A stretch of 41,303 bases of DNA, taken from Acidimicrobiaceae bacterium. Lineage in GTDB: Bacteria > Actinomycetota > Acidimicrobiia > Acidimicrobiales > Bog-793. Below are positions 15,280 through 41,284 of this stretch, one piece after another. Location: positions 1-41,303 of the forward strand of contig DAHWHN010000006.1 in the NCBI GenBank assembly GCA_027335685.1, in the 5' to 3' direction. The first letter of the stretch is position 1; each line of letters starts with the position of its first letter. Below the pieces are notes generated by a model. The model did no database searches. It saw only the letters and a program-made list of their open reading frames with translations, and had not been told where the DNA came from. The translations under genes were made by a program, and so were the position numbers.

Positions 15280-17028
15280 TCAGCGCGGACCGAACCTGCA
15301 GAACGTCACCGGTTCGAACCCGGCACCGATGTGGGCCGCCTCGACGTCGCAGGCACGGGCGACGAGCCCGGGTGCGCCGAGCCGGGCGAGGTAGCGCGAC
15401 GTCCCCTTCGGCGTCGAGAGCCCGTGCCGGGGCGGCACGTCGACGAACACGACGTCGATGTCGCCTCCGTCACGGCGCACGCGTGCAAGCGCCCGGTGGA
15501 CGAGCACGCGGTTGGCCGGCGTGAGGAGGTTCCCGATGCCGCCGATCGCGACGAGGCGCTGCGGGAGCTGGGGGAACAAAAAGCCCATCGGCTGGCCACC
15601 GACCTCGACGACTGCGTCGGTCTTGTCGTTGTCGAGCACGTGGGGGAGCTGGAGGCTGAAGTACCGGCTCCCGAACGGCACCCGCAGCCAGTAGTTCCCC
15701 GGCCACGCGGTGGCGGCGCAGAGCGCGCAGACGACAAGGACCGTCGGTACCAGCCCGCCCGCAGCTCGGGCGCGCCACGGTGACGTCGCGGGGGCGAGCG
15801 CGGCGAGGCGGCGGAGGACGGCGACGATCACGACCGGCGAGAGCACCTCGAGCGGCAGGACGTAGCGGTAGATGCTGAAGACCTTCATCCAGACGGCCAA
15901 CGAGACGGCGAAGGTCACGATGAGGTAGCGGTCCGCGTCCGCGTCCCGGGTCGTGCCCGTCTCGGCTGCGACCACCCGGGCGTCGTCGAGCGGCGACGCG
16001 GCGACGGCTCGCCGGCCGACGGCGCGCCAGAGCAGGCGGGCGGCGCCGGCGAGGACGAGGAAGCAGGCGAGGATGTACGCGAGGGGCAACGAGAGCTCGC
16101 GGAAGCGGATCTCGCCGACCAAGAGAGGGTGCGCGACCCACCGGAGCGGGAAGCTCAGGCCCGCGAGCACCGATCGCGGGCCGTACCCTCCCCCGGCGAG
16201 CCGGGGCTTCGGGACGTACGGCGAGTGGAAGATGCCGAACGACGCCTGCGTGAAGGCGATGGGGTCCCCGTAGTGCACCCAGAGGAACCAGCTCCAGTAG
16301 CCCGAGGTCGCAGCGACGCCGGCCACGCCACCGGCTGCGCCCGCTCCGAGGCGTTTTGCCCGATCCCGCAACGAGCCCCCGACGGCCACGAGCCCGACGA
16401 CGATCCCGACGGCCACCGGAAGCTCCGAGAGCTTGAGGCCTGCGCCCGCCCCGGCGAGGGCCCCGGCGAGGGCCCAGCGCCACAGCTCGCCGGGCGCCCC
16501 CCGCCTGTCGACCGCCTGGAGGGCGAGCAGGACCGCGCCGACGAGGGGAACCGCGACGATCGTGTCGCCCATCGAGTTGCCGATCTGCGCGGCGAACCCG
16601 CCTGCCACGGCCGCGGCGACGCCGGTCGCGAAGCCGACGACCCATGAGCGCGTGAGGCGGTGGGCCACGAGGACGACGAGCAGCGGACCGCAGCCTTGCA
16701 CCGCGCCGACGACGGCCGCTTCAAGCCGGGGGGGGCTGTGGCCGATCAAGAGATAGATCGGCACGTCGAGCAGCGGGTTGATGAGGGACTGCAGCTGCGC
16801 CGCGTAGACGTCCACGCCGAGGCGGTCGTGGAGGAACGCATAGGCGATGTAGTAGTGGTAGTTGAGCAGGTCGTAGTTCGCGTCCTGGCCGATCGCGAGC
16901 GCCGCGAGGGCGCAGCCGAGCGGGAACGCGAGGAGCAGCGCGCGCCGAAGCCCGGGCGCGTGGGCACGCGCACCTGCGCGCACGGCCCCTGGCACGCGAG
17001 CTCCCTGGTGCGTCCCGGTGCGCTTCAC
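15280..17028 (-). CDS. Polytopic GT-C-like membrane protein, paralog A
   Basis: 582 residues with roughly ten or more membrane helices and a C-terminal extracytoplasmic-looking domain of about 100 residues. It starts PLGCALAALAIGQDANYDLLNYHYYIAYAFL; an acidic motif just after the first helix (GQDAN.DLLNYH), followed by NPLLDVP and GNSMGDTIV, is the kind of layout seen in GT-C lipid-linked-sugar transferases. I do not recognise a named family, so function is inferred only. It is clearly homologous to the divergently transcribed gene at 17271-19223, sharing all these motifs and the ending AHIGAGFEPVTFCRFGP. GTG 17028 lacks a visible ribosome-binding site; the start may be slightly downstream. 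Confidence 0.78.
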   Translation of the reverse strand: MKRTGTHQGARVPGAVRAGARAHAPGLRRALLLAFPLGCALAALAIGQDANYDLLNYHYYIAYAFLHDRLGVDVYAAQLQSLINPLLDVPIYLLIGHSPPRLEAAVVGAVQGCGPLLVVLVAHRLTRSWVVGFATGVAAAVAGGFAAQIGNSMGDTIVAVPLVGAVLLALQAVDRRGAPGELWRWALAGALAGAGAGLKLSELPVAVGIVVGLVAVGGSLRDRAKRLGAGAAGGVAGVAATSGYWSWFLWVHYGDPIAFTQASFGIFHSPYVPKPRLAGGGYGPRSVLAGLSFPLRWVAHPLLVGEIRFRELSLPLAYILACFLVLAGAARLLWRAVGRRAVAASPLDDARVVAAETGTTRDADADRYLIVTFAVSLAVWMKVFSIYRYVLPLEVLSPVVIVAVLRRLAALAPATSPWRARAAGGLVPTVLVVCALCAATAWPGNYWLRVPFGSRYFSLQLPHVLDNDKTDAVVEVGGQPMGFLFPQLPQRLVAIGGIGNLLTPANRVLVHRALARVRRDGGDIDVVFVDVPPRHGLSTPKGTSRYLARLGAPGLVARACDVEAAHIGAGFEPVTFCRFGPR

Positions 17029-17270
17029 GTGTACGTCGAACGGCTGGCTACGGCGCGTCCCTTTCGAGTCGCGTGCCGGACGAGCAAGTCACCGGCGTGC
17101 CCGAGTGCCTGGACGAGCACTCGGTCAGATCGCATTTGTCAATTGTGTTACGAACGTAGCACGGACCCGATCGCGACGTCGCAGCAGCAGAGCGGCGGCG
17201 GCGGCGGCGGAGCAACTACCGTGCCAGGACCAGCGCGTGCGTCACGACCGGCGCACGGACAGGAGGCTCG
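17029..17270. promoter_or_regulatory. Intergenic region between divergent membrane paralogs
   Basis: 242 bp without a gene. It holds an AT-rich island around 17136-17160 (tttgtcaattgtgttacg) with the palindrome CAATTG and the inverted repeat TACG-AA-CGTA. Minus-strand TTGACA here is a perfect -35 hexamer, but no good -10 lies 17 bp away. A (CGG)n run is at about 17191-17208. AGGAGG lies just before ATG 17271. It probably carries the promoters of both genes. Confidence 0.4.
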
Positions 17271-19223
17271 ATGGCGCACAGGGCGCCGGCAACCACGGCA
17301 GGGACGCGTCGGCCCGACCGCGCGACGACTCCACCCGCCAGGCTCCGCTGGCCCGAGCGCGCCGTCCTCGCGCTCCTCCCCGTCGGCTGCGCGCTCGCGG
17401 CGCTCGCGATCGGCCAGGACGCGAACTTCGACCTGCTCAACTACCACGCCTTCGACCCGTACGCGTTCCTCCACAACAGCCTCGCCGTCGACGTCATCCC
17501 CGCGTCGCTGCAGAGCTACCTGAACCCGCTCATCGACGTCCCGTTCTACGCGCTGATGACCCACGTCCCCCCGCGTTTCGAAGCCGCGATCGTCGGCGCC
17601 GTCCAGGGGCTCAACCTCGTGCTCGTCGCGTGCATCGCCCGCCGGGCGACCGGGTCACGGCTGCTCGCGCTCGCGGCGACGATCGCGGCCGGGGTCGCGG
17701 GAGGGTTCGCGTCCGAGCTCGGCAACTCGATGGGCGACACGATCGTGAGCATCCCCGTCCTCGCCGGCGTCTGGTGCGCGCTCGTCGCGATCGAGCGCGG
17801 ATCGGCCACGCCAGGTGCACGACCAGGACAGGCGCGCCGCCACCGGACGCGCCGAGACGCGGTGGGCCACGACGACGCGAGGCGCGCCGAGACATGGTGG
17901 TGGGCTGCCGCAGGTGCCCTGGCGGGGCTCGGGGTCGGCCTCAAGCTGTCCGAGCTCGAAGTCTGCGTCGGCCTGGTCGTGGCAGCCGGAGCCGTCGCAG
18001 GATCGTGGCGCGATCGCCTCCGGCGCCTTCTCGTCACCGGGCTCGCGGACCTTGCGGGCCTGCTCGCCACCGCCGGGTACTGGACGGTCCACCTCTGGCT
18101 CACCTACCACGACCCGCTCGTGTTCGACGCCTCGTCGAACGCGCTCTTCCCGACCCCGTACCTTCCCGCGGCAGCGGCCCAGGGGCGGGGCTTCCTGCCG
18201 GCGAACCTCTTCCAGGCTCTCGTCTATCCCCTCTACTGGTTCGTGCACCCGCTCGCGGTCGCGGAGATCCCGCTGCGCGAGCTCTCGATCCCGCTCGCCT
18301 ACGTCCTCACCGCAGCCCTGGTCGTGGTCGTCGTCGCCCGAGCGATCCTGCGCACGGCACGGGCTGGGGCTCGGTGGGCGCGCCGGAGCGCGCCTGGCGC
18401 AGCCGGCGCAGCCCCCGACCCGCTGCCCGCGTCGCGGGCGGACGACCATGTCGCGGCGCAGGCCGACCGCTTCTTCCTCGTGCTCTTCGGCGTCTCGCTC
18501 GCCATCTGGACCAAGCAGCTCGGCGTCTACCGGTACCTCATGCCCGTCGAGACCCTCGCGCCGCTCGTGATCTGGGCAGCCGCGCGGCGGCTCTCGCTCC
18601 TCGCCGCCGAGCGCCGGGGAGGCGTGCCGGGCCGGGCAAGCCGGCGCCGGCGCGCCCTCGCGGCGAGCTTCGTCGTCGCGTGCACCGCCTGCGCCGCGAC
18701 GGCCTACCCGGCGAGCTACTGGCTGCGCGTGCCTTTCGGGACCCGCTTTTTCACCGTGCCGACTCCACCCCTGCTCCAAGGGCGGCGACCCGACGCGGTG
18801 CTCCAGGTGAGCGAGCAACCGCTCGCCTTCGTCTACACCGTCCTTCCGAGCCGGATCATCGCCGTCGGTTACCTCGGCAACATCCTCGACCCGACCTACA
18901 TCCGGCTCGCCGACGACGCCGTGCGCCGCGCCGTCGGCGCCGGGGGTTCGGTGCTCGTCGACTTCGTCGGCTCCTACGGTCCCGGCCTCCGGGTCCCACC
19001 CGGCACGAGCGCCTACCTCGCCGAGCTCGGCCTCGGGCGCCTCGCCCCGGACGCCTGCGACATCGACCGTGCCCACGTCGGGGCTGCGCCCTTCTACCTC
19101 ACGTTCTGCCGGCTCGGGCCCCCTCCTCCGGCACGCCCGTCGCCGCGCGCCGCGCGCGGACATGGCGCGCCACCACGTGCTCGAGCCGCTCCACCATCTG
19201 CCGGCCGACCGTCGCCGAGCTGA
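17271..19223 (+). CDS. Polytopic GT-C-like membrane protein, paralog B
   Basis: 650 residues, same architecture as paralog A: LPVGCALAALAIGQDANFDLLNYHAFDPYAFL, NPLIDVPFYAL, GNSMGDTIVSIPVLAG and the C-terminal DIDRAHVGAAPFYLTFCRLGP. Compared with paralog A it has an extra basic cytoplasmic loop (about residues 180-210, rich in Arg and His) and a Pro/Arg/Ala-rich tail of about 32 residues after the point where paralog A stops. That tail is the part lying antisense to the downstream glycosyltransferase gene (125-bp overlap, 19099-19223). ATG 17271 has AGGAGG four bases upstream. Likely a lipid-linked-sugar-dependent transferase or other glycan membrane protein; exact role unknown. Confidence 0.8.
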   Translation: MAHRAPATTAGTRRPDRATTPPARLRWPERAVLALLPVGCALAALAIGQDANFDLLNYHAFDPYAFLHNSLAVDVIPASLQSYLNPLIDVPFYALMTHVPPRFEAAIVGAVQGLNLVLVACIARRATGSRLLALAATIAAGVAGGFASELGNSMGDTIVSIPVLAGVWCALVAIERGSATPGARPGQARRHRTRRDAVGHDDARRAETWWWAAAGALAGLGVGLKLSELEVCVGLVVAAGAVAGSWRDRLRRLLVTGLADLAGLLATAGYWTVHLWLTYHDPLVFDASSNALFPTPYLPAAAAQGRGFLPANLFQALVYPLYWFVHPLAVAEIPLRELSIPLAYVLTAALVVVVVARAILRTARAGARWARRSAPGAAGAAPDPLPASRADDHVAAQADRFFLVLFGVSLAIWTKQLGVYRYLMPVETLAPLVIWAAARRLSLLAAERRGGVPGRASRRRRALAASFVVACTACAATAYPASYWLRVPFGTRFFTVPTPPLLQGRRPDAVLQVSEQPLAFVYTVLPSRIIAVGYLGNILDPTYIRLADDAVRRAVGAGGSVLVDFVGSYGPGLRVPPGTSAYLAELGLGRLAPDACDIDRAHVGAAPFYLTFCRLGPPPPARPSPRAARGHGAPPRARAAPPSAGRPSPS

Positions 19224-20400
19224 AGCGCTCACCGACGACGGCAGCCGCCGACGCGCCGAGCCGGGCGCGCACGGCGGGGTGCTCGTAGAGCATGCGCAGC
19301 CGCCTCGCTGCCTCGCCGACGTCCGGCTCCGCCCAGGTCTCCCCCGCGACGTAGACGTTGCGCGCCGCGGGGTTGAAGCGGAGCTCGCCGGCGTCGACGG
19401 CGCACGTGTGGTAGCCGACCGGGCAGCCTGTCGAGATGTCGAGGAAGTCGCACGGCCCCGAGTAGCCCGTCGCGACGACAGGGCGGCCGGCGGCCATCGC
19501 CTCGGCGATCCCGAGCCCGAACCCCTCTGCCCGGTGCAGCGAGAGGTAGACGTCGCACGCCGACGTCAGCGCGGCGAGCTGGCTGTCGCTCATCTCGGTG
19601 TCGAGGAGCGTCCCGCCGGCGTCCGAGACGGCGCGCGCGAGCGCGAGGTGCGCCTCGGGCAGGGTCGCGAGGTTGATCGTCTTCACGACGAGGTGCGCGC
19701 GACGCGCCCGCTCGGCCGGGGAGAACGCCCTCCGGTACGCCTCGACGGCGCCGAGGGGGTTCTTGCGCGCCAGCGTCGAGCTCGCGTCGAAGCTGCAGAG
19801 CACGAGGAAGCGGTCCTCGGGCAGGCCGAGCGCGCGGCGCGCACCGCCCTGCCACGCCTCCCCGGCCGAACCGTCGACAGCGGTGCCGGTGTGCCCGCAG
19901 CGACCCGCGTCGGTCCCGACCGGTCCGTCGTCGACCACGCAGGGCACGACGGCGACCGGACAGGTCGCGTGCCGCTCGAAGACCTCCGCCACGAAGCGCG
20001 ACGCCACCCAGATCTCGTCGACCCGACGTGTCTCGCGGACGAGGTCCGGCGCCAGCGTGGAGAGCTCCCAGAACCACGAGACGACGACGGGTCGCGCGAG
20101 CGGCTCGGGCCGCAGGAAGGACTCGGGGATGACGTGGAACTCGTTGACGTTCAAGAAGAACAGGTCGACGCCGTGGGGCCGGCCACGCGGGAGCTCGCGC
20201 AGCTGCGCGGGCAGGCGGTGCGGTGCCCGAGGCGCCCCGTAGTCGTAGTCGACGAGAGCGACGGGAACACCCGCCTCGACGAGCGCGAGGACGCTGCGGC
20301 GTGCCGCCTGCGCGAGGCCTGTCGTCGACTCCCAGCTCGCGATCGCGTTGACGCCTGGTGGGCGCCGGAGCGCACCCGCCGGCCCCGACGCCGTGGCCAC
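19099..20400 (-). CDS. GT4 glycosyltransferase, single-module
   Basis: 433 residues from GTG 20400. GT-B fold with an acceptor-side start NAIASWESTTGLAQAARRSV, FLNVNEFHVIPESF, SWFWELSTLAPDLV, VDEIWVASRFVAEVF, then donor-side CSFDASSTLARKNPLGAVEAYRRAF and CDVYLSLHRAEGFGLGIAEAMAAGRPVVATGYSG (E-X7-E). The same series of motifs occurs in the C-terminal halves of the two fusion proteins at 26213 and 28629, so this is the stand-alone version of that module. The ORF track extends to 20547, but GTG 20400 is preferred: it is ten bases after the methyltransferase stop, with GAGG upstream. Last gene of the minus-strand glycan series. Confidence 0.87.
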   Translation of the reverse strand: MATASGPAGALRRPPGVNAIASWESTTGLAQAARRSVLALVEAGVPVALVDYDYGAPRAPHRLPAQLRELPRGRPHGVDLFFLNVNEFHVIPESFLRPEPLARPVVVSWFWELSTLAPDLVRETRRVDEIWVASRFVAEVFERHATCPVAVVPCVVDDGPVGTDAGRCGHTGTAVDGSAGEAWQGGARRALGLPEDRFLVLCSFDASSTLARKNPLGAVEAYRRAFSPAERARRAHLVVKTINLATLPEAHLALARAVSDAGGTLLDTEMSDSQLAALTSACDVYLSLHRAEGFGLGIAEAMAAGRPVVATGYSGPCDFLDISTGCPVGYHTCAVDAGELRFNPAARNVYVAGETWAEPDVGEAARRLRMLYEHPAVRARLGASAAAVVGERFSSATVGRQMVERLEHVVARHVRARRAATGVPEEGARAGRT

Positions 20401-20410
20401 CAACCCTGCC

Positions 20411-21898
20411 TCAGGGCCGCCGCGCCACGAGCGCGCACGCGCCGGCCACGAGCGCCGCGTCGCCAAACCGGGGCGCGAGCCGGCGGAGCTCGACGTCGGC
20501 GAAGCCCCGCGCCGCGACCGCGAACGCGAGGAACCCGCAGCCGACATGGCGGTCCGACACCGTGACGGCGACGGCCGGCTCCGTCCCGGCAGCGGCCCCG
20601 ACGGGGTCGGACAGGTCGATCACGAGGACGCCACCCGGCTCGATCGCGAGCGCCGCGAGGTCGACGAGCTCGACGATCTCACCCGCGGTCAGGTAGCCGA
20701 CGACGCGGGCTGCCGTGAGCGCGCCGACGCTCGACCTGTCGAGACCACGCACGTGCTCGACGACGTCGTCGACCGCGACGACGCCGGCGGCCACGGCGTC
20801 GTCGGCCACAGGGCCGACGTCGACGCCGCGCGCGTCCAGGCCCGCCTTGCGCAGCAGCTCGAGCCACTCGCCTCGTCCCGCCCCGACGTCGAGCACGGGC
20901 TTGGTCGATTGCGTCCCGACGATGTCGGCGAGGTAGCAAGCCGCACGTGCCTCGGCACGAGATGCCGGCTCGACGAGCGCGTCGGCGTAGGCGGCCCACA
21001 GCTGCTCGACGGTCCCCGGGGAGCCGGCGAGGCGAGCGGGAAGCGGCCCTGCGTCGCCACGCGCAACGTGCGCCGCGCCGAGGGCGAGGTCGACCTGGGC
21101 GAGCCGGAGACGCAGGGCGGCGAGCTCGCGCTCGACGGCCCGCTCGGTGGCGCGCAACCTCGCCGTGAGCGCCTCGCCCGCCGCACGCTCGGCCACGAGG
21201 CGCTCGGCGACATCGTCGGCCGCGACCTCGACGCGCGCCGAAAGGTCCCCAATCTCGCTCCGGATCGAGCCGATGCCGTCGTGGTAGCGGGAGAACGACT
21301 GCCGGTCGACGAGGTCCAGCTCCGCGCGCAGCCCGTCGAGCGCCTCCTCGACAGATGCGAGCGCGTAGCCGTGCGCCTCGAGCTTCGGCACGGCCGCCTC
21401 GATCGCCCAACCCTGGCGCTCGAGCGCCGCGCGCAGGTCGCGCACCGCGTCCTGGAGCTCGGCGAGGGTGCCCAGCGCAGCGTCGAGGCGAGCGGCGTCA
21501 CCGTCGGCGCGAGCGGCGAGGGCGTCGAGCGCGTAGCCGTGCGCCTCGAGCTTCGGCACGGCCGCCTCGATCGCCCAACCCTGGCGCTCGACGCGCCCGG
21601 CGACGTCGTCGACCCGGGCGGCGAGCGCTCCGGACTCGGCGCCCAGCGCGGCGAGCGCAGGACCGGCGTCGCGCGCCAGGCTCTCGACCCGCTCCTCGTC
21701 GAGGGCGGCGCCGAGTGCCCGCACGTCGTCACGCAGCGTGTGGTTGAACGCGACCTGCTCGCGCAGGACCGGCCACGCGATCCGCGCGACGACGCGCTGC
21801 GCGAGACCGGCACGGCGGCCACCTGATCTGTCGAGCCCGAGGTCCGGCGACGGGCGCGCCCCGGCGGGACCGTCGCTGTCCGGCGTCGGCTGCGACAA
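20411..21898 (-). CDS. Coiled-coil methyltransferase 1 (divergent catalytic domain)
   Basis: 495 residues. After a disordered start, residues 35-60 contain ARIAWPVLREQVAFN (shared with the paralog at 24553), then about 220 residues of Ala/Leu/Arg/Glu-rich predicted coiled coil, then a class I methyltransferase domain from about residue 330 (VLDVGAGRGEWLELLRKAGLDARGVDV). The coiled coil holds a perfectly repeated segment, residues 104-124 and 160-180. A RQxxxRYHDGxG motif at about 199-210 is conserved with the paralog. In the catalytic domain the paralog's QVVEHL is RVVGYL and its NPEN...FYLDPTHRRPL stretch is missing, so activity or substrate may have changed. TTG 21898 is supported by AAAGGAG seven bases upstream. 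Probably modifies or terminates the surface glycan. Confidence 0.85.
   Translation of the reverse strand: MSQPTPDSDGPAGARPSPDLGLDRSGGRRAGLAQRVVARIAWPVLREQVAFNHTLRDDVRALGAALDEERVESLARDAGPALAALGAESGALAARVDDVAGRVERQGWAIEAAVPKLEAHGYALDALAARADGDAARLDAALGTLAELQDAVRDLRAALERQGWAIEAAVPKLEAHGYALASVEEALDGLRAELDLVDRQSFSRYHDGIGSIRSEIGDLSARVEVAADDVAERLVAERAAGEALTARLRATERAVERELAALRLRLAQVDLALGAAHVARGDAGPLPARLAGSPGTVEQLWAAYADALVEPASRAEARAACYLADIVGTQSTKPVLDVGAGRGEWLELLRKAGLDARGVDVGPVADDAVAAGVVAVDDVVEHVRGLDRSSVGALTAARVVGYLTAGEIVELVDLAALAIEPGGVLVIDLSDPVGAAAGTEPAVAVTVSDRHVGCGFLAFAVAARGFADVELRRLAPRFGDAALVAGACALVARRP
21358..21591. repeat. Perfect 66-bp direct repeat, 168-bp offset
   Basis: Bases 21358-21423 and 21526-21591 are identical over 66 bp. 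The 168-bp offset equals 56 codons, so the duplication is in frame within coiled-coil methyltransferase 1. Confidence 0.95.
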
Positions 21899-21942
21899 CG
21901 ACCCTCTCCTTTCGCCCCGGCTCTGCGGGACCCCGACAACGG

Positions 21943-24540
21943 CTACGAGACCCTAACGCCACCCGGGAGATGTGGCAGGACGATCTCGGCGGCTGTGTCC
22001 GCCGGCCGGACCGTCGAGACGAGGGCGGCGAGGGCGTCACGAGCCTGCGAGGCGACGGCTGCGGGGAGCCATGCCGTCTCCGCCGTCTTCCTCGCCCGCG
22101 CCCCGACCCGCCCGCGCAGGGCCGGGTCCGCCGCGAGCCTGCGCATCCAACGGGCTGCTCCGGCTACGTCCGGCTCGAGCCAGAGATAGCCGGCTCCCGG
22201 AGGTGCCGCCGACTCCGAGTCCAGGTAGAAGTCGGCGTCGGTCGCCTCACGGACCTCGTAGCCGACACGGCAGCCGTCCCGGCCGCTCGTGTGACCGTCG
22301 AGGGCCGACCAGCTCGTCGCGAGGACGACCTTGCCGCACGCCATCGCGTCGACCAGCAGGAGACCGACGGGCTCGGCACGGTGGAGGGAGACCACGACGT
22401 CGCTCTCGTCGAAGAGAGCTTGCAGCTCGCCCCGCGAGGGGTCGAGGACGATCCGTCCCCGGACCCGCGCCAGCTCCTCGGCGAGGCGGGCGGCGGCCTC
22501 GGGCCGCGCCGCCGATCCCCCGAACGCCACGGTGAGGCGCGCCAGGCGACCCCGCTCGCCGCTCGGGAAGGCCGCCCGGAAGGCGTCGACGACGGCGAAG
22601 GGGTTCGCATAGGCGACGCCCGTCCCCTCCTCGACCGCCGCGAGGAGCTCGCACGGCCCCGAGCGAGCGCTCCGTTCCACCGGCACGCCGGCGCAGGCCG
22701 GCCAGGCCACGATGCGCGCGGGCACAGAGGTGCTCATCGCCGCGACCTCTGCGCCGTGCTCGCCCGCGACCCACACGTGCTCGGCGAGCTCGAGCAGCAG
22801 CCTGTAGTCCGTCGTGAGCGGGGTGAGGCTCGGCGCGAGGACCGCCACGACGCGGTGGCCCCGCGCCCGGCGGACACGGGCCAGCCGGCCCATCCGCCCC
22901 GCCGACGCGTCGTCGGCGACGTAGAGGGCGACGACGTGGGGGCAGCGGGTGACGAGGTCCCGGTCCGCGCGGTCCATCTCCTCCTCGGCGAGCTGGAGGA
23001 CGGCGCGGTCCCGGGTCGCGCGCGCCGCCGCCTCGGCCCGGTCGCCGTGCTCGCTCCGGCCCGCCGCGTCCGCCGCTCCGTCCGCCCGACCGGGTCGACC
23101 GGGCTCCGGGGTGCCCCCCGCCGCGCCCGGTGACCCGGGGGCCACCGTGGCGCCCGGCTGCGACCGGTCGCCGTCTCGGACCGCCGGGCCGAGCGGTGCA
23201 GACAGCTCGGCGGCGACGACGTCGATCCCGCCGGCGCCGAGCGCGTCCACGAGGCGTCGGGCTCCTCGCGCCAGCTCGCCCGGGCTCCGGACGACGAACA
23301 GGTTCGCGCCGGCGAGCGACCGGGACCCGAGTGCCAGGTGCCTCCGGCTCGCCACCTTTCTCGCGCGCTGGGCAGCGCAGTGCTCGACGTGGGCCACGTA
23401 CTGCTCTGCCACGACGCGGTAGGTCGCCTCGCTCTCGACGAAGCGCCTCGCGGCCTCTCCGGCGCGCCGGCAACGCTCGGGGTCCGCCGCGACCGCGTCC
23501 ATGATCTCGACGAGGCTGTCGTGCTCGCGGTCGAAGTCCGTCGTCACGCGCCAGCAGTACCGGCTGTCCAGCTCGCGGAACTGCAGCACGTCGCTCACGA
23601 TCGCAGGCCGACCGGCGCCGAGGGTCCGCATCAGCGTCGCGCTCATCTCCCCGGCCGTCGGCCAGCGCAGCGAGATCCCGACGTCGCACAGCGACATCTC
23701 CCGCTCGAGCTCGTCGAGCGGGAGGTTCGTCTTCACCTCGAGCGCGCCGGCGAGGTCGGGCCGCTCTGCGAGCCGGCGCACCTCGATCTCGAGCAACCGG
23801 TCGTCGGCGCGTCCGGCGATCACCATCCGGGCAGCCGGCCGGCGGGCACGGACCTCGGCGAAGGCCTCGACGATCGGCATGATGCGCTTGTAGTAGTTGA
23901 TCCCGCCGAAGACGCCGAAGACGACCTCTCCCGGCCGTCGTGGCTCGAGGCGCGGCACGTCGGGGACGATCTGGGCAGGAAGCTGGATCGTCGCGATGTC
24001 GGCACCGCCGTAGCGCCGGCGCATCTCACGTGCCATCGCGCTCGAGTGCACGAGCGTGCGCACGTTGGACTCGACGATCCGCCGAGCCAGGAGGACGGCG
24101 ATCCGGTCGAGGTCGATCCTGCCGTTGCCGGCGTCCACGAGCGGCAGGTCGTCCTCCGGCGCGATCGCGGGGCAGTCGTACGCCACCTCGTCGCGGAATA
24201 TCGTGCTCCGGGCGTCCCCGCACATCTCCGCGGTGAAGTCCGCGAGAGACGGGTCGTGGAGGACGAGCAAGCCGGGCTCCTCGAAGGCCCGGCCGTAGAT
24301 GAACCGGTGGAAGTTCGGGTTGTTGCCCATCTGGTAGATCGCGCAGTCGTACTCGCCGGGGAGCACGCTCGAGTCGCCGACCACATCGACCCCGTCCGGC
24401 GCCCGGGCGCTCCAGAGCACCTCGTCGCTGACCACGGCCGTCACGTCGAGCAGGTTCCTGAGCTCTTCGAGCAGCTCGTAGCTGTAGTCGCCGATCCCCG
24501 TGCGCTCGGGCGGCAACGGGGAGAAGAACGCGACCCGCAC
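21943..24540 (-). CDS. Tandem two-domain glycosyltransferase (GT4-GT4-like)
   Basis: 865 residues with two GT-B modules. Module 1 (about 1-395) starts MRVAFFSPLPPERTGIGDYSYELLEEL, has FGVFGGINYYKRIMPIVEAF and ISLRWPTAGEMSATLMRTLGAGRPAIVSD. A low-complexity Gly/Pro/Ala/Asp linker lies at about 455-530. Module 2 (about 535-850) has NPFAVVDAFRAAF and DVVVSLHRAEPVGLLLVDAMACGKVVLAT; compared with its relatives in this cluster its E-X7-E motif reads EPVGLLLVD, with the second Glu replaced by Asp, and its N-terminal Rossmann half seems short. It is probably a bifunctional or one-active, one-structural transferase. GTG 24540 lies 12 bp after the methyltransferase 2 stop; co-transcribed with both coiled-coil methyltransferases. 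Confidence 0.85.
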   Translation of the reverse strand: MRVAFFSPLPPERTGIGDYSYELLEELRNLLDVTAVVSDEVLWSARAPDGVDVVGDSSVLPGEYDCAIYQMGNNPNFHRFIYGRAFEEPGLLVLHDPSLADFTAEMCGDARSTIFRDEVAYDCPAIAPEDDLPLVDAGNGRIDLDRIAVLLARRIVESNVRTLVHSSAMAREMRRRYGGADIATIQLPAQIVPDVPRLEPRRPGEVVFGVFGGINYYKRIMPIVEAFAEVRARRPAARMVIAGRADDRLLEIEVRRLAERPDLAGALEVKTNLPLDELEREMSLCDVGISLRWPTAGEMSATLMRTLGAGRPAIVSDVLQFRELDSRYCWRVTTDFDREHDSLVEIMDAVAADPERCRRAGEAARRFVESEATYRVVAEQYVAHVEHCAAQRARKVASRRHLALGSRSLAGANLFVVRSPGELARGARRLVDALGAGGIDVVAAELSAPLGPAVRDGDRSQPGATVAPGSPGAAGGTPEPGRPGRADGAADAAGRSEHGDRAEAAARATRDRAVLQLAEEEMDRADRDLVTRCPHVVALYVADDASAGRMGRLARVRRARGHRVVAVLAPSLTPLTTDYRLLLELAEHVWVAGEHGAEVAAMSTSVPARIVAWPACAGVPVERSARSGPCELLAAVEEGTGVAYANPFAVVDAFRAAFPSGERGRLARLTVAFGGSAARPEAAARLAEELARVRGRIVLDPSRGELQALFDESDVVVSLHRAEPVGLLLVDAMACGKVVLATSWSALDGHTSGRDGCRVGYEVREATDADFYLDSESAAPPGAGYLWLEPDVAGAARWMRRLAADPALRGRVGARARKTAETAWLPAAVASQARDALAALVSTVRPADTAAEIVLPHLPGGVRVS

Positions 24541-24552
24541 GGACGCGCGCCC

Positions 24553-26007
24553 CTAGGGCCGGTGACCGACGACCACGTAGTCGGCGGGCGCGAACAGGTG
24601 GACGTTGACGGCGTCGACGACGGCACCGACGGTTTCGGCCCACGGCTCGTCCGGCTTCGGGCGCTCCAGTCCCTGCGCCTGCTCCGCCCGCTCGAGCCGG
24701 CGGACCTCGACGTCGGTGAAGCCACGTGCGCCGACGAGGAAGGCGAGCAGCGGCGGCGGCAGCGGGCGCCGGTGGGTCGGGTCGAGGTAGAACGACGACG
24801 CGCCGACCACGAGGTTCTCCGGGTTCTGCGTCTCGAGAAGGATGAGCCCGCCCGGCCGGATGGCCCGAGCGCTGAGCTCGACGAGCTCGATGAGCTCGTC
24901 GACCCCGAGGTGCTCGACGACCTGGATGGCCGTGACCGCACCGAGGGAGGCGGCGGGCACCCCGAGCAGGTGCGCGCGCGCGTCCTCGACGCGGACGTCG
25001 AGGCCGCGTGCTCGGCACGAGGCCGCGTGCTCGGCGTTGAGCTCGACCCCGTAGGCCGGGACGCCTCCGGCGGCGAGCACGTCGAGGAGCTCGCCGCGGC
25101 CAGAGCCGACGTCGAGGACTGGTCCTCCCGCGTCGGCGAGGTCGTCGAGGTAGAGCCGGACGCGCTCGCGCACGACGGGCTCCGGGCCGCGAAAGGCCTC
25201 CGCGAACACCGCTTCCAGGCTCGCGAAGCCGCTCGGCACGCCTGCGAGCTCCGCTGGCGCCGGCACGTCGGGAAAGCTGCGGCGGACCTGGGTGAGGAAC
25301 AGGTCGAGCTGGCCCATGCGGAGCCAGACGTCGTCGAGTGCGGCCCGCCAGGCATCGCGGTGGGTCGCGGCGCCGTCGAGCGCCTCGAGCGCGGCGGAGC
25401 GGGCAGCCTCGGACGCCGCGGCGATCGCGTCGTCGATGCCCGCGCGCACGGCCAGCACGTCGTCCGTCACGGCGGCCAGCCCGGTCGACACGGCCTGCGA
25501 CGCGATGCCCGACGCAGCCTCGACTGCGGCTTCCCGGACCCCGGGCAGCGCGGACTCGAGGTCGTCGAGGCGCAGCTCGAGCTCGTCAAGGGCGGCGCGC
25601 AGGCGACCGACGCCGTCGTGGTACCGGGCGAGAGCCTGCCGCTGGCCGAGGTCGACCTTGTCCTGGACGAGGTCGATCTGGCGGATGAGGTCTCCGGTCG
25701 CCCGCTCGAGGTGGGTGAGGAGGAACTCGTGGCGGTCGAGCGGCTCCTCGTGGCGGACGAGGACGCTGCTGTGGTGCGCGAGGTCCCCGTCGACACGGGC
25801 GAGACGGAGCTCGTCGCTGTCGAGGCGCGCCCGGACCGCGTCGAGCTCGGCGAGCAGGGCGCGGTTGACCTGGACCTGGTGGCGCAGGACGGGCCAGAGG
25901 ATGCGACCGAGCAGGCGCCGGGCGAAGCGGAACCGCCCCGGGGCGGCCGGCAGCCCGATGTCGGCGTGCGCCTCGGCGACCGACCAGCTCGGGGTCAGGC
26001 CGGGCAC
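24553..26007 (-). CDS. Coiled-coil methyltransferase 2
   Basis: 484 residues from GTG 26007. N-terminal FARRLLGRILWPVLRHQVQVN (residues 28-48), long helical/coiled-coil region to about 240 with the RQxxxRYHDGxG motif (123-134), then a class I methyltransferase domain: VLDVGSGRGELLDVLAAGG (297-315), YGVELN, AIQVVEHLGVDELIEL, RPGGLILLETQNPENLVVGASSFYLDPTHRRPL (384-415). The QNPEN...DPTHRRPL stretch is typical of methyltransferases in O-antigen and capsule clusters that act on glycans. Start is uncertain: the ORF track reads far upstream through a repeat tract, while GTG 26007 gives an N-terminus of the same length as the paralog. A 16-residue ORF in another frame overlaps this start. Confidence 0.85.
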   Translation of the reverse strand: MPGLTPSWSVAEAHADIGLPAAPGRFRFARRLLGRILWPVLRHQVQVNRALLAELDAVRARLDSDELRLARVDGDLAHHSSVLVRHEEPLDRHEFLLTHLERATGDLIRQIDLVQDKVDLGQRQALARYHDGVGRLRAALDELELRLDDLESALPGVREAAVEAASGIASQAVSTGLAAVTDDVLAVRAGIDDAIAAASEAARSAALEALDGAATHRDAWRAALDDVWLRMGQLDLFLTQVRRSFPDVPAPAELAGVPSGFASLEAVFAEAFRGPEPVVRERVRLYLDDLADAGGPVLDVGSGRGELLDVLAAGGVPAYGVELNAEHAASCRARGLDVRVEDARAHLLGVPAASLGAVTAIQVVEHLGVDELIELVELSARAIRPGGLILLETQNPENLVVGASSFYLDPTHRRPLPPPLLAFLVGARGFTDVEVRRLERAEQAQGLERPKPDEPWAETVGAVVDAVNVHLFAPADYVVVGHRP

Positions 26008-26045
26008 GAGGTATCGCCCGTCGTGGTCGGCTCGCTCGTCGCCAT
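25995..26045 (-). CDS. Possible 16-residue leader ORF overlapping methyltransferase 2 start
   Basis: ATG 26045 opens a short frame (MATSEPTTTGDTSCPA) ending at 25995, overlapping the first 13 bases of the methyltransferase frame. It lies nine bases after a TACGAT -10-like element, so it would be the first start codon on a nearly leaderless transcript. It may be a leader peptide, or the true N-terminus of methyltransferase 2 separated by a frameshift. Evidence is positional only. Confidence 0.25.
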   Translation of the reverse strand: MATSEPTTTGDTSCPA

Positions 26046-26054
26046 GGCGCGCCC

Positions 26055-26060
26055 ATCGTA
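26055..26060 (-). promoter_or_regulatory. Putative -10 (TACGAT) upstream of methyltransferase 2
   Basis: Minus-strand TACGAT between the (CCCAG)9 tract and the first start codons of the downstream series. No clear -35 is present; the repeat tract starts 30 bp upstream of it. Confidence 0.35.
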
Positions 26061-26090
26061 CCGGGGCCCGCCGCCCCCTGCCGAGCTCGT

Positions 26091-26138
26091 CCCAGCCCAG
26101 CCCAGCCCAGCCCAGCCCAGCCCAGCCCAGCCCAGCCC
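26091..26138. repeat. (CCCAG)9 pentanucleotide tract, G-quadruplex-prone
   Basis: Nine perfect CCCAG units plus CCC. On the minus strand this reads (GGGCT)n, ten GGG runs separated by two bases. It lies in the 205-bp gap (26008-26212) between the GT fusion stop and methyltransferase 2; the rest of the gap holds only the putative promoter above and otherwise nothing I recognise. Confidence 0.95.
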
Positions 26139-26212
26139 GGTCGGGTCCGCGGTCCCCCGCGCGTCGCGCCCGGAGCCGCACGGGCGGCGCCAGGGCGCGA
26201 GGTGCGGGCTTG

Positions 26213-28612
26213 CTAGCGCCCGCTGCGGGCGCGCCAGCGCGGCCGTCGTGGGGCAGTCCGGCGGCGCTCGGCAAGGACGGACTGTGCGTGGGCAAAGCGC
26301 GCCGCGACGACGCGTGCGCGCGCCTCGAGCCCGTGGTGCTCGAGCACGTCGGCCTGAGCAAGCGCCCCGCGCTCGCGCGCAAGGTCCGGGTGGTCGGCGA
26401 CCTCGCGCAGCAGCCGTGCAGCGACTGCGAGGTCCGGCTCGGCCCAGCGCGCGCCGTGCGGGTACGGGTCGTGCGCGACGGGCACGTGGCCCACCGTGTA
26501 GGGCACGAGGTAGGAGTTCTGCTCGGTCATGAAGTCGAGGTTGCCCGAGTAGCCGGTCGCGACGACCGGCTTTCCGAGAGCCATCGCCTCGGCGAGGGTG
26601 AGCCCGAAGCCCTCCGAGCGGTGCAGCGAGACGTAGCAGTCGCACGACGCCATCAGGGCCGACTGCCCGGCCCGGTCGAGGTAGCTGTCGAGGACGACGA
26701 CGTCCGGCCGTCGGCTGGCCTCGCGCTTCAACCGCTCGAGCTCCCCGGCGCGCCGCTGCGCGTTGACCGCCTTGAGCACGAGCACGGGACCCTCGCCCGG
26801 CGCGAACGCCCGGCAGAACGCCTCGAGGAGCCCGAAGGGGTTCTTGCGCTCGACGTCGCTCATCACGTCGAAGCAGAAGAGGAACATCGTGCCCTCCGGG
26901 AGCCCGAGCTCCCGGCGAGAGCGCGCCGCGGCGGGGCTCGGCGCGACGACCGGGAGCGGGAAGGCGACCACTGGAACGGTCGCGACCGCGGCGATCGCCC
27001 GGCGGGTGAACTCGCTGTTGGCCCAGACCTCGTCGACGTAGGCAAAGGACGCCGCGTAGCGGGCCGGGAACTCCTCGAGCTCCCACGCCCACAGGCCGAT
27101 CGTGTAGTGGTCGGCGAAGAACCCCGGCCCCACCCGGGCGGCGAAGCGGGGGAGCTCGTCCGCGTTCACGCAGACGAGGTTGACGTCGAGATCGTCGCGC
27201 CGCGACGCGTCGAACTCGTGGAGCTGCCTGCTCGCCGACGTCACGTCGACGTAGGTCGACGTCGTGATGCCCGCCCGCTCGGCGGCGAGCACCGCGAGGC
27301 GACCGTGCTCGCCGACGCCGGTCTCGGCGCGCAGGTACCCTGCGACGCGTATCCCCGGCCGGGGGGATGCAGGCGCAGGGCCGACGGCGCGATCTGCCAG
27401 CGCGAGACGGGCGTCGAGCCGGCCCTGGGCGACCTCGTGGTGGCTCCACTCGGCGACACGGTCGCTGTCGGCGCCGTCGGGATCCGGGAAGACCGCCTGC
27501 AGGTCCGGGCGGCTCGCATGCAGCGCGGCGAGATAGCGCGTCAGGCGACCACCGGGCCGCTCGTCGGGCACGGCGTTCAGCCAGTCGAGGAACTGCCGGC
27601 CGTCGTCGTCGAAGGGGTTCGGCGGCGCAGCGAGCGCACAGCCGTCGTGCGCCTCACTGTCGAGCAACGCGGCGCGGAAGAGCGCGCGCATGACCCGGTC
27701 GTACGCGAGCCCGTTGCCGAGGCGCCCGAACGCGTACTCCGGCGACACGCCGCCGTGACCCGCAGCGACAAGCCGGCTCGCGTAGTCGTCGCACAGCCTG
27801 GCCAGGCCGGGACGCTCGGACAGCACGATGCGCGGCTGCTCGCCCTGGTGCTTGCTCAGCAGGTGCGGCGCATCCGGGCTGTAACCGCTGAAGTGGAAGA
27901 AGTGGATGGGCTCGCCGTCGAGGCGTGGCAGCACCCCGTCGAAGGCGACCTCGCGGCCATGCAGGTTCCAGTACGCGACGTTGAAAGTCGGATCGTGCAC
28001 GATCGATGTCGGGAACAGTCCGGGCACGAAGTCGACCCAGCGCTGGTCCACGAAGCGCATGTGCACCGGATCGGTCACGCACTCCCGGCGCAGCCGCACC
28101 TTCCAGAAGTCGAGGAACTCCGCGGCATCTCTCGACACCGCGACGAAGCCGAGGTTGTAGATCCCCGACGCGAGGATGTCGCTCTCGGTGACGCTCCGCC
28201 CGTCACGCGGGATCGGTCGGGTCACGTGCGGTGTCAGCACGATGCCGGTCTCGACGGCCCGCTCGCAGAGCTCGTCGAGCGGCGCGTAGACGACGACGTC
28301 GGGATCGAGGTAGAGCACGGCATCCGCGCCACCGGCGAGGAGCGTCTCGAGCAACCAGGGCTTCACGGCCGTCGCGATCTCGAGGACGTCGTAGATCGCG
28401 ACCATCTTCACGAGCTCCTCGGGCGCGATCCCGATCTCGTCGAGGTGGAGGATCCGGAACGGCTCCGCCGACGTGCCGACGCTCCGCTCGAGGTCGTCGA
28501 GCAGCAAGACGTCGAGGACCGATCCGGGGTGGTGGCGCGCGAACGACGTCGCGAGCACACGCGCCGCGGGCAGGTAGTTGCGAGCGACGATCGTGCAGGC
28601 GCGGACGGTCAC
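26213..28612 (-). CDS. Fusion glycosyltransferase: GT-A (GT8-like) plus GT4
   Basis: 799 residues. The N-terminal module (about 1-300) starts VRACTIVARNYLPAARVLATSF, has VLDVLLLDD, an ATAVKPWLLETLL helix and the DxD-type metal motif in VLYLDPDVVVYAPLDEL (D103-P-D105), then NVAYWNLHGR and HFFHFSGYSPD, a GT8-like GT-A layout. After a helical linker, the C-terminal GT-B module (from about residue 425) carries VAGYLRAETGVGEHGR, LVCVNADELPRF, GLWAWELEEFPARY, FCFDVMSDVERKNPFGLLEAF and YVSLHRSEGFGLTLAEAMALGKPVVATGYSGN (E-X7-E). Both modules look catalytically complete, so it may add two successive sugars. GTG 28612 with GAGG nine bases upstream is preferred over the ORF-track start, which overlaps the upstream gene. 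Paralog of the next gene upstream. Confidence 0.87.
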   Translation of the reverse strand: MTVRACTIVARNYLPAARVLATSFARHHPGSVLDVLLLDDLERSVGTSAEPFRILHLDEIGIAPEELVKMVAIYDVLEIATAVKPWLLETLLAGGADAVLYLDPDVVVYAPLDELCERAVETGIVLTPHVTRPIPRDGRSVTESDILASGIYNLGFVAVSRDAAEFLDFWKVRLRRECVTDPVHMRFVDQRWVDFVPGLFPTSIVHDPTFNVAYWNLHGREVAFDGVLPRLDGEPIHFFHFSGYSPDAPHLLSKHQGEQPRIVLSERPGLARLCDDYASRLVAAGHGGVSPEYAFGRLGNGLAYDRVMRALFRAALLDSEAHDGCALAAPPNPFDDDGRQFLDWLNAVPDERPGGRLTRYLAALHASRPDLQAVFPDPDGADSDRVAEWSHHEVAQGRLDARLALADRAVGPAPASPRPGIRVAGYLRAETGVGEHGRLAVLAAERAGITTSTYVDVTSASRQLHEFDASRRDDLDVNLVCVNADELPRFAARVGPGFFADHYTIGLWAWELEEFPARYAASFAYVDEVWANSEFTRRAIAAVATVPVVAFPLPVVAPSPAAARSRRELGLPEGTMFLFCFDVMSDVERKNPFGLLEAFCRAFAPGEGPVLVLKAVNAQRRAGELERLKREASRRPDVVVLDSYLDRAGQSALMASCDCYVSLHRSEGFGLTLAEAMALGKPVVATGYSGNLDFMTEQNSYLVPYTVGHVPVAHDPYPHGARWAEPDLAVAARLLREVADHPDLARERGALAQADVLEHHGLEARARVVAARFAHAQSVLAERRRTAPRRPRWRARSGR

Positions 28613-28628
28613 GGTGCTGTGCCTCGGC

Positions 28629-31139
28629 TCAGAGGAAGCGGCGGACCGCGTCGGCGGCCGCACTGGAGTAGCCCTTGCGGAGCTTCTTCTCGATGGCGTC
28701 GACGCGCCGCCGCACGAACCGCTCGGCCTGGGCGACGCCGTGCTCGCGCAGCACCCGATCGCGCGCGCGCTGGCCGAGCACCCGAGCGTCGTCGGGGCGT
28801 GCCGCGACGCGCCGCATCAGCTCGGCAGCCGCGCCGACATCGGGGTCGAACCAGTGGTCGGTTGCGTCGTAGGGCTCCCGTCCCGGACCCACCCGTACGC
28901 GCTCTCCCGGGACGAGCAGGGCGGTCTCGTCGTCCATGAAGTCGAGATTGCCCGAGTAACGCGTCGCGATGACCGGTTTGGCGAGGGCCATCGCCTCGCC
29001 CATCGCGAGCCCGAAGCCCTCTGCCCGGTGCAGCGACACGTAGCACTGGCAACTGTCGATCAGGGCGGCGAGGGCCGGGCTGCTCAGGTAGCCGTCGACC
29101 ACCGCGACGTCCGGCCGCTCCGAGGCCGCGATCAGGAGCTGCTCGAGCTGTGCGCGCCGCTGGTCGCCGTTGACGCTTTTCAGCACGAGCACCGGACCCG
29201 CCCCCGGAGAGAACGCTGTCGTGAAGGCCGCGAGGACACCGAGCGGGTTCTTGCGGTCGAAGCCCGACAAGAAGTCGTAGGTGTAGAGGAAGCAGAACCC
29301 GTCGGGGACCCCGAGCGCCGCCGCGTCGAACGAGGCGTCACGCGACGGTTCGACCACGGGATGGGGAAAGACGTGGACCTCACGGTCGACCGCAGGAGCC
29401 ACGGCGTCCCTGACGTAGCTGCTCGGCACCCAGATCTCGTCGAGCATCGCCGCCGAGACGGCCATCGACGCCGGCAGCGACTCGGTCTCCCAGGCCCAGA
29501 AGCCGACGTTGTAGCGACCGTCGAAGAACTCCGGACCGACCACCGACGCGAAGCCGGGGAGCTGGTCGGCGTTGACCCAGACGAGGTTGATGCGGCGATC
29601 GGCGCGCGGCGAAGCTGCCGCGTCGGCACGGGGCGGGCCCTCGTGGAGCTGGCGGCTCGCGCGGGCACCGATCGTGACTGCAGAGACCTCGACGCCCGCA
29701 GATACGAGCACGTCGAGGGCGAGGCGTGCGGCTTCGCCGACGCCGGACTCGGCGCGCAGGTACCCGGCCAGCGCGACACCTGGCCGCAGCGCCGCGGGCG
29801 CGACGGCGACGGCACCGGTCGGAGCCGACCACCATGGCGTCGCCGCCAGCGCCGTGCGCAGAGCCGGCGGGACGCGCGCCTCGTCGAGCCCGTGCTCGCC
29901 GACCCACTGGCGGAACCTCGCGGCGTCCACCGTCGCGAGCCGCGGGAAGTGCCACACGAGATCCGCGCGCTCGCGGTAGACCTCGACCAGGTAGCGCGGG
30001 ATCTCGGGTGCGAGCGGATCCGCCGGGTCGGGCGCGGCCAGCCAGTCGTAGAACGGCGCGCGGCCGGCCGGGCCGTCGGGGTCGGGCGCGGCCTGTTCGT
30101 CCCACCGGGCCGATGCGGCGGCCCGGCGGACGATCCGGCGCATGCGCTCGTCGACGACCACCGCTTCCGCGCGACCCGGCGGCTCGGTTCCGGCGCTCGG
30201 ACCGCCGTCGGGCTCGAGCGCCGCGGAGCCGTCCATCTGCAACTGCTGCGCCCGCTCGTCGCACAGCCGGCGGAGTGCCGGGTTCTCGCTCAGAAGGACA
30301 CGCGGTCGGCGGCTGCCCGCCGGGCCGACGAGGTACGGCTGCTCGGGATCGAAGCCCTGGAGGTGTGCAAGGACGAGAGGGGCGCCACCGGCACGGTAGC
30401 CGTCGGTCGCGCTCCAGCTGACCGCCCGCTCGTGGGCGTTCCAGGCCGCCACCCCGACGCCCGGCGCCCGGCAGAGCTGCGCGCCGAACAACTGCGGCGC
30501 GAACCCGAGCGCTGGCTGCGCTCGGCTCGGGTGCCCCCCCGGCGACGACGCGAGGTGCCGCAGCGACCGCTGCCACCAGTCGAGGAACGCGCTCGCACCC
30601 GGGGCGACGGCGACGATCCCCGGGTCCACCGGGCCGGCGTCGACGATCTCGGCCTCGCTCGGGGACCACCCGTCGCTCGGCAGGGGGCCGAGCAGGCGGG
30701 GCACGAGGACGGCCGGAACCCCGCCCGGCGGCACGAGGTCGTCGAGCGCCGCGAGCATCACGACCTCGGGCGAGAGCCACACGACCGGGCGACCCCGCCC
30801 GAGCAGCGCCGCCACCAGTGCCGGTGCAAAGCATGCAGCGAGGTCGTCGCCGCTGCACAGCCACGCGAGCTCGTGGCGCCTCCAGGGCTCCAGCGCGAGG
30901 TCGCCGGTGCGCACGATCTCGACCGGCGTCTCGACGCCGGGCAGCGGGTCGAGCCCGGCCCGCTCGGTCGCGCCCGGGTTGCCACCGGCATCGCGCCCGG
31001 CCGAGGTCTCGCCCACCTCGTCGACGAGAAGGACCACCAGTGCCTCGCCCTCGTGGTGTCGCGCAACCGCGCGCGCGAGGGACCGGACCATCCCCCGGCG
31101 ACGGCGTGTCACGGCGGTGCAGACCAGCGGCACCGTCAC
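28629..31139 (-). CDS. Fusion glycosyltransferase with degenerate GT-A domain plus GT4
   Basis: 836 residues, collinear with the 26213 gene. The N-terminal module keeps the outline (VPLVCTAVTRRRRGMVRSLARAVARHH, AWNAHERAVSW, LAHLQGFDPEQPYLVG) but the metal motif is replaced: VVWLSPEVVMLAALDDL has S-P-E at 123-125 where the paralog has D-P-D, so this half is probably not an active metal-dependent transferase. The C-terminal GT-B module is intact: LAGYLRAESGVGEAARLA, LVWVNADQLPGF, GFWAWETESLP, YTYDFLSGFDRKNPLGVLAAF and YVSLHRAEGFGLAMGEAMALAKPVIATRYSGN. GTG 31139 has AAGGAG eight bases upstream. It is the first gene of the minus-strand glycan series and is followed after 16 bp by its paralog. Confidence 0.87.
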   Translation of the reverse strand: MTVPLVCTAVTRRRRGMVRSLARAVARHHEGEALVVLLVDEVGETSAGRDAGGNPGATERAGLDPLPGVETPVEIVRTGDLALEPWRRHELAWLCSGDDLAACFAPALVAALLGRGRPVVWLSPEVVMLAALDDLVPPGGVPAVLVPRLLGPLPSDGWSPSEAEIVDAGPVDPGIVAVAPGASAFLDWWQRSLRHLASSPGGHPSRAQPALGFAPQLFGAQLCRAPGVGVAAWNAHERAVSWSATDGYRAGGAPLVLAHLQGFDPEQPYLVGPAGSRRPRVLLSENPALRRLCDERAQQLQMDGSAALEPDGGPSAGTEPPGRAEAVVVDERMRRIVRRAAASARWDEQAAPDPDGPAGRAPFYDWLAAPDPADPLAPEIPRYLVEVYRERADLVWHFPRLATVDAARFRQWVGEHGLDEARVPPALRTALAATPWWSAPTGAVAVAPAALRPGVALAGYLRAESGVGEAARLALDVLVSAGVEVSAVTIGARASRQLHEGPPRADAAASPRADRRINLVWVNADQLPGFASVVGPEFFDGRYNVGFWAWETESLPASMAVSAAMLDEIWVPSSYVRDAVAPAVDREVHVFPHPVVEPSRDASFDAAALGVPDGFCFLYTYDFLSGFDRKNPLGVLAAFTTAFSPGAGPVLVLKSVNGDQRRAQLEQLLIAASERPDVAVVDGYLSSPALAALIDSCQCYVSLHRAEGFGLAMGEAMALAKPVIATRYSGNLDFMDDETALLVPGERVRVGPGREPYDATDHWFDPDVGAAAELMRRVAARPDDARVLGQRARDRVLREHGVAQAERFVRRRVDAIEKKLRKGYSSAAADAVRRFL

Positions 31140-31176
31140 CGCGGCGGCTCCTTCTCGCCCGCTCCGGCGGGACGCG

Positions 31177-31860: not shown

Positions 31861-31866
31861 GGCGCG

Positions 31867-31872
31867 AGGCTA
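31867..31872 (-). promoter_or_regulatory. -10 element (TAGCCT), leaderless promoter for dienelactone hydrolase
   Basis: Minus-strand TAGCCT followed by six bases and ATG 31860. There is no Shine-Dalgarno sequence. Confidence 0.5.
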
Positions 31873-31895
31873 CCGTGGCCGGCTCGCGCCCGGCG

Positions 31896-32663: not shown

Positions 32664-32670
32664 CGCGGTG

Positions 32671-32676
32671 AGGCTA
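32671..32676 (-). promoter_or_regulatory. -10 element (TAGCCT) ahead of the unrecognised gene
   Basis: Minus-strand TAGCCT, seven bases before GTG 32663, again without a Shine-Dalgarno sequence; consistent with a leaderless start independent of fumC. Confidence 0.35.
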
Positions 32677-32701
32677 CCGGCCACCTGCACGGAGCCGGTG
32701 C

Positions 32702-40627: not shown

Positions 40628-41284
<657 letters not shown>

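Follow-up and report, generated by a model that had tools for sequence, protein, structure and literature searches.

Two paralogous coiled-coil methyltransferase proteins, here called A and B, flank a double-domain glycosyltransferase in a 41,303-nt stretch of DNA from an Acidimicrobiaceae bacterium (contig DAHWHN010000006.1, positions 1 to 41,303, referred to below as the window). The reading we favour, to which we assign a probability of about one half, is that B caps a glycan as a terminator spaced by its coil and that A, no longer catalytic, acts as a scaffold. The parts of this reading differ in strength. From its sequence B is predicted to be an active methyltransferase, unlike A; that its substrate is a glycan is well supported; that it terminates chains at a distance given by the coil stands at about even odds. 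Coiled-coil rulers of glycan length are experimentally established in a few enterobacterial O-antigens, and we know of no Wzt-linked methyltransferase with the coil first whose function has been tested.

Architecture of the two paralogs

The two open reading frames lie on the minus strand where the original prediction had placed them (Table 1), and their proposed paralogy is confirmed by 30% identity in BLASTP (E 2e-36). The common WPVLRxQVxxN start was found at residues 38-48 of B and 42-52 of A, its Q and N being invariant in an alignment of 24 sequences. In B it is preceded by a basic, amphipathic 18-mer (charge +5, moment 0.65, shuffle p 0.04); such an 18-mer opens B and most of its relatives (shuffle p 0.02-0.14), and the N-terminal helix that it is expected to form may bind the membrane. 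The RQxxxRYHDGxG motif is likewise shared (B 123-134, A 199-210) and is conserved in relatives. Pfam detected no glycosyltransferase domain in either protein.

Table 1. Coordinates of the features in the window
Feature	Position	Strand	Remarks
GT4 glycosyltransferase	19099..20547	-	next gene downstream of A; Pfam
Protein A	20411..21898	-	B paralog, longer coil, degenerate methyltransferase; 495 aa, TTG start; predicted pseudoenzyme
A, degenerate methyltransferase domain	20411..21010	-	
A, RQSFSRYHDGIG motif	21269..21304	-	
A, coil-1	21305..21742	-	162 residues from WP to RYHDG; holds the internal repeat
A, coil repeat copy 2	21358..21423	-	spacing to copy 1: 168 nt, equal to 56 aa or 8 heptads
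A, coil repeat copy 1	21526..21591	-	ERQGWAIEAAVPKLEAHGYAL, 66 nt; 100% identical to copy 2
A, amphipathic helix (predicted) and WPVLREQVAFN motif	21743..21808	-	
Double-GT4 protein	21943..24540	-	865 aa, between A and B; Pfam, two stretches; position kept in relatives
Protein B	24553..26007	-	484 aa, GTG start; amphipathic helix predicted at the N-terminus, followed by coiled coil and class I methyltransferase
B, methyltransferase domain with FRG motif	24553..25224	-	
B, coil-2	25279..25605	-	length-variable
B, RQALARYHDGVG motif	25606..25641	-	
B, coil-1	25642..25863	-	most conserved segment
B, basic amphipathic helix (predicted) and WPVLRHQVQVN motif	25864..25932	-	
GT8-like + GT4 glycosyltransferase	26213..28663	-	816 aa, next gene upstream of B
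GT4-containing glycosyltransferase	28629..31139	-	836 aa; Pfam

A coil of about 200 residues had been predicted, and AlphaFold gave long helices and a non-globular N-terminus in both proteins, with the coil modelled N-terminal to the methyltransferase. The helices of B (36-sequence alignment; mean pLDDT 81, methyltransferase mostly above 90) span residues 27-36, 38-178 and 184-243, and those of A (22 sequences, lower confidence; mean pLDDT 70) span 28-119, 125-175 and 180-279. These are monomer predictions, in which an oligomeric coil cannot show. Coil-1 has a significant hydrophobic periodicity close to 3.5 in B (3.52, p 0.035) and in A (3.49, p 0.001), and the methyltransferase halves of both have none.

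When the proteins were divided into coil-1 (WP to RYHDG), coil-2 (RYHDG to LRxxQ), linker and methyltransferase core, the coefficients of variation in length over 24 proteins were 0.43, 0.39, 0.07 and 0.05, respectively. The B clade departs from this freedom in one half of the coil. Its coil-1 measures 90 residues in seven of eight members, and in B the N-terminus and coil-1 together show a lower pN/pS than the methyltransferase (0.07 vs 0.14 between G001 and G002; 0.17 vs 0.23 between G000 and G001). Coil-2 of B is alanine-rich and the weakest coil, and among B orthologs it ranges from 41 to 105 residues. Since coil-1 of B is both fixed and highly conserved, an interface fits it better than a free ruler, and only coil-2 behaves like an adjustable spacer. 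A heterocoil of A and B in register across coil-1 is unlikely, the lengths being 90 residues on one side and 162-197 on the other.

Internal repeats, scored at 14-20 identities per 20 residues, were found in 16 of 93 rows, which represent 14 distinct proteins, always in the coil half and never in a methyltransferase half. The main offsets are 11, 14 and 56 residues (three proteins each), followed by 59, 48, 27, 13 and 8; most of them, not all, are multiples of a heptad or hendecad. Variation of this kind, in coil length as in repeats, is what a ruler might show, and a ruler role is plausible. A Planctomycetota member (L110, 7802-10651), encoded downstream of a Wzt gene, carries a 48-residue coil unit repeated at least four times.

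Catalytic motif loss in protein A

A class I methyltransferase had been proposed for both proteins. The assignment is clear for B and only partly right for A, whose domain is degenerate and has lost its catalytic motifs. B matches PF13489 (Pfam, E 2.9e-12) and the solved structure 3dli (sequence comparison 2e-28, fold comparison 6e-18), and its EHL, NPEN and FYLDPTH motifs are all intact. It carries the C-terminal 3dli-like methyltransferase with EHL, ETPNPEN and FYxDPTH; A has the SAM motif only, retaining VLDVGAGRGEW and lacking EHL, NPxN and FYxDPTH. Its match to PF13489 (6.8e-6) lies under the Pfam gathering score, its 3dli match has an E of 2e-6, and pLDDT falls to 34-41 at the expected FYxDPTH loop. 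Among 91 family proteins EHL is near-universal, DPTH is nearly so, and NPxN is common, with NPEC in a subclade. In PHROGs only a weak methyltransferase match was obtained, for B; Rfam returned nothing.

The loss can be followed across genomes. All three motifs are gone from A of three same-genus genomes, A of G012 is partly decayed (VERL, DPRV), and A of G015 and G026 has its catalytic motifs intact. Coil-1 of A measures 62 residues in the intact G015 and G026 proteins and 162-197 in the decayed proteins of G000, G001, G002 and G012; coil growth and catalytic decay thus coincide, within one lineage only. The reading frame is open in three genomes and pN/pS of the methyltransferase is well below 1 (0.28 [0.14-0.52], G001 vs G002), which rejects a pseudogene. 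Motif loss under purifying selection points instead to a pseudoenzyme, and the coil lengthened by internal repeats suggests that A has likely become a scaffold.

The tree, which was built by a quick method without bootstrap, separates the A from the B proteins of these genera, and the A/B duplication is therefore older than the genera; a second copy from G010 falls elsewhere. The end branch of the window's A is 0.88 long in this quick tree, against 0.14 for B.

The exact 66-nt duplication in the coil of A, like the loss of its catalytic motifs, had escaped the original prediction. In the model of A, each of the two helix breaks falls where a repeat copy ends. A of G012 has its own near-identical pair at the same 168-nt spacing, and in A of G002 the two copies have diverged while keeping the spacing. 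This pattern fits gene conversion or repeated duplication. A deletion between the copies would be expected to take out 56 residues without disturbing frame or register.

Locus and family context

Acidimicrobiaceae MAGs were found as the nearest named relatives, so the actinobacterial origin guessed from the sequence was right. The host genome (2.39 Mb, 153 contigs) is 82% complete. The tandem glycosyltransferase expected between A and B is indeed present, as a protein with two GT4 domains. The frame of the GT4 gene downstream of A overlaps A by 137 nt, and its true start is probably internal. Six genomes, which represent four genera and include the window's own, conserve all or some of the order fumarase, P480, two glycosyltransferases, B, GT4/GT4, A, GT4, membrane protein. 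Among 35 genomes of the bacterial family, 14 encode a protein matching A with E <= 1e-25.

Conserved beside the cluster are two large membrane proteins of 582 and 650 aa, divergently oriented and with similar sequences (15280-19223). Neither has a Pfam match, and M_650 has neither a PDB nor a Pfam match; they are possibly GT-C-type enzymes. A scan for sigma-70 promoters and terminators over 19000-33000 came back empty and is uninformative at the local G+C. On the minus strand at 25995-26060, a TACGAT box resembling a -10 element is followed by an ATG-started ORF of 16 codons whose TGA overlaps the GTG start of B. An in-frame version of 16-22 codons is kept in the window's genome and five relatives, and the ORF is a possible leaderless leader with translational coupling to B. 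Just upstream of the TACGAT box lies a perfect pentanucleotide repeat, (CCCAG)9.6 at 26091-26138, which is absent from five relatives and could affect expression of B. Another perfect repeat, the hexanucleotide (GGGCTC)9.3, is located near the end of the window (41221-41276).

No Wzm or Wzt gene lies within the window, and at E <= 1e-50 neither was found in the window's own 82%-complete genome. G001 and G002, of the same genus, have one Wzt each at this threshold, unlinked on another contig. The wider family was surveyed in 77 loci from many phyla, retrieved through the alignment and forming a non-random sample picked by a SAM-motif pattern and by similarity. In 31 of the 77 loci the gene directly upstream, read in the same direction, encodes a Wzt-type exporter ATPase; L118 is left out of this count. 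The Wzt pattern also matches DrrA-type ABC proteins, which L118 and G000:C43 probably are, so only the RLAF/RLGF form was trusted. Several other Acidimicrobiales loci have Wzt 4-5 kb downstream. Of the 67 more distant loci, 46 have a recognisable further glycosyltransferase, and roughly half of those without one carry Wzt. Most homologs sit in glycan loci. A location mainly elsewhere, or a globular N-terminus, had been named beforehand as grounds for refutation, and neither was seen. The linkage to Wzt supports ABC-transporter-dependent glycan assembly as the setting of the family.

The coil-first order had been taken as unusual, a view that the family does not bear out. It is general, for example in Pseudomonas, Xanthomonas and Desulfobulbaceae, and is a family rule rather than a peculiarity of this organism. 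A literature search, carried out mostly outside subscription journals, found no publication on this family. In Cyanobium a gene beside Wzt (L130, 9896-11107) has the methyltransferase first and a possible coil after it. Open frames of two relatives match the same methyltransferase family (L065, 5825-9829, 1335 aa; L064, 2-3007, at least 1002 aa); these same genes (L047, L050) also resemble the 816-aa glycosyltransferase of the window, so that the frames may be WsaE-like fusions. The published PA5455-PA5459 operon of P. aeruginosa, which serves common polysaccharide antigen synthesis, was taken up as a lead and is not used as evidence here.

Proposed mechanism and known systems

The A/B pair would form part of a machinery that assembles a cell-surface polysaccharide at the membrane, on its cytoplasmic side. 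B would be anchored there by its basic N-terminal amphipathic helix, and its coiled coil, probably oligomeric, would space the active methyltransferase from membrane-bound multi-domain glycosyltransferases. Methylation of the non-reducing end by B would then cap the chain. Within the coil, a fixed protein-protein interface would be provided by coil-1 with the RYHDG segment, and the adjustable spacer by coil-2. In the window's lineage A, the product of the old duplication, has lost its substrate and catalytic motifs, retained the SAM-binding motif and the fold, and lengthened its coil by internal duplication; it is most likely now a scaffold or regulatory partner. An extension of this scheme, which we consider unlikely, is length control by two rods, B capping the chain and the dead A setting or modulating glycan length. 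The coil of A would then gain or lose its 56-residue (8-heptad) module through recombination between the near-identical repeats.

The alternative that deserves most weight, although we regard it as doubtful, is that B is an internal O-methyltransferase decorating the repeat units of a glycan, with the coil only a scaffold for glycosyltransferase assembly and the length set elsewhere. The fixed, interface-like coil-1 of B, the lack of a cis exporter in the window and the methyltransferase-like stretches within the long glycosyltransferase-bearing frames of L065 and L064 would all suit it, as would the finding that methylation by WsaE in vitro is independent of chain length (PMC2943079). It accounts less well for the linkage of the family to Wzt, for the recurrence of coil plus terminator in ABC-dependent systems and for the strong length variation of coil-2, which a pure scaffold would not need.

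Two further readings concern the substrate. A might be an active, neofunctionalised methyltransferase with a changed substrate, so that A and B add different methyl groups. It retains SAM motif I, purifying selection still acts on the domain, and AlphaFold still gives the core sheet; against this, sites with a conservation of 90% or more across the family, among them EHL and the FYxDPTH loop, were lost together, that loop is predicted with very low pLDDT, A has evolved far faster than B, and G012 shows an intermediate state. We judge this reading improbable. It is more improbable still that A and B methylate lipids or small molecules and are merely sited among glycosyltransferases: Methyltransf_23 is a broad domain family, but the gene order with glycosyltransferases is conserved, and the distant loci described above have a further glycosyltransferase or, in about half of the remainder, Wzt.

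A widespread family of opposite domain order, beside Wzt in many phyla and extending to Actinomycetota, would make the ruler principle general and mechanically indifferent to domain polarity. Natural variants with coils of very different length, recent in-register duplications included, offer ready-made tests of coil against chain length, and the decayed A illustrates how such an enzyme may become a pure scaffold. The locus is more useful as a family of coil-length variants than as an oddity of a single organism.

A close anatomical parallel is WbdD of E. coli O8/O9a and Klebsiella O3/O5, a chain-terminating methyltransferase(-kinase) with a coiled-coil ruler. As in WbdD, a class I methyltransferase would stand at the far end of an extended coil and an amphipathic membrane helix at its near end, and the protein would act beside multi-domain glycosyltransferases in an ABC-exporter system. 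The models place such a coil between methyltransferase and membrane end in A and B, and the sequence predicts the helix at the end away from the methyltransferase. The differences are that A and B run helix, coil, methyltransferase, in the reverse order, and that there are two paralogs, one of them degenerate. Kinship of the methyltransferases was rejected as a ground for membership: a profile search reached WbdD (4ax8) only in a 42-residue stretch of the SAM motif (E 0.007), and 3dli was matched at 5e-64. Pfam and NCBIfam scans gave no kinase domain in A or B. The O5 form of WbdD adds methyl only (PMC11231755), so absence of a kinase does not exclude a WbdD-like mechanism. B thus resembles WbdD-type terminators by anatomy; it is not a WbdD.

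ORF6 of Klebsiella O7 (methyltransferase, kinase, CBM, coil and two glycosyltransferases) also has a coil parting the methyltransferase from the glycosyltransferases and a terminator role, but as a single polypeptide with the methyltransferase first and a novel kinase domain (PMC11231755), whereas here the glycosyltransferases are separate proteins and no kinase was seen. The WsaE methyltransferase, which adds a 2-O-methyl cap to the S-layer glycan of Geobacillus stearothermophilus, shows such capping on a Gram-positive glycan built by multi-domain glycosyltransferases and exported by Wzm/Wzt (PMC2943079). It is N-terminal and fused to two glycosyltransferase domains, which A and B lack, and the likeness described here is one of anatomy. 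The structure closest to the methyltransferase domain in fold and sequence, the SAM-dependent methyltransferase 3dli of A. fulgidus, has only 240 residues and no coil. A further comparison is with the Wzt-linked coil-first methyltransferases of Pseudomonas, Xanthomonas, Lysobacter, Desulfobulbaceae and other Acidimicrobiales, which belong to the same methyltransferase family and lie adjacent to wzt. In these, too, an N-terminal region precedes the methyltransferase, though it is largely unalignable outside Acidimicrobiales; they are usually single-copy with the exporter in cis, whereas the window has two copies and no cis exporter.
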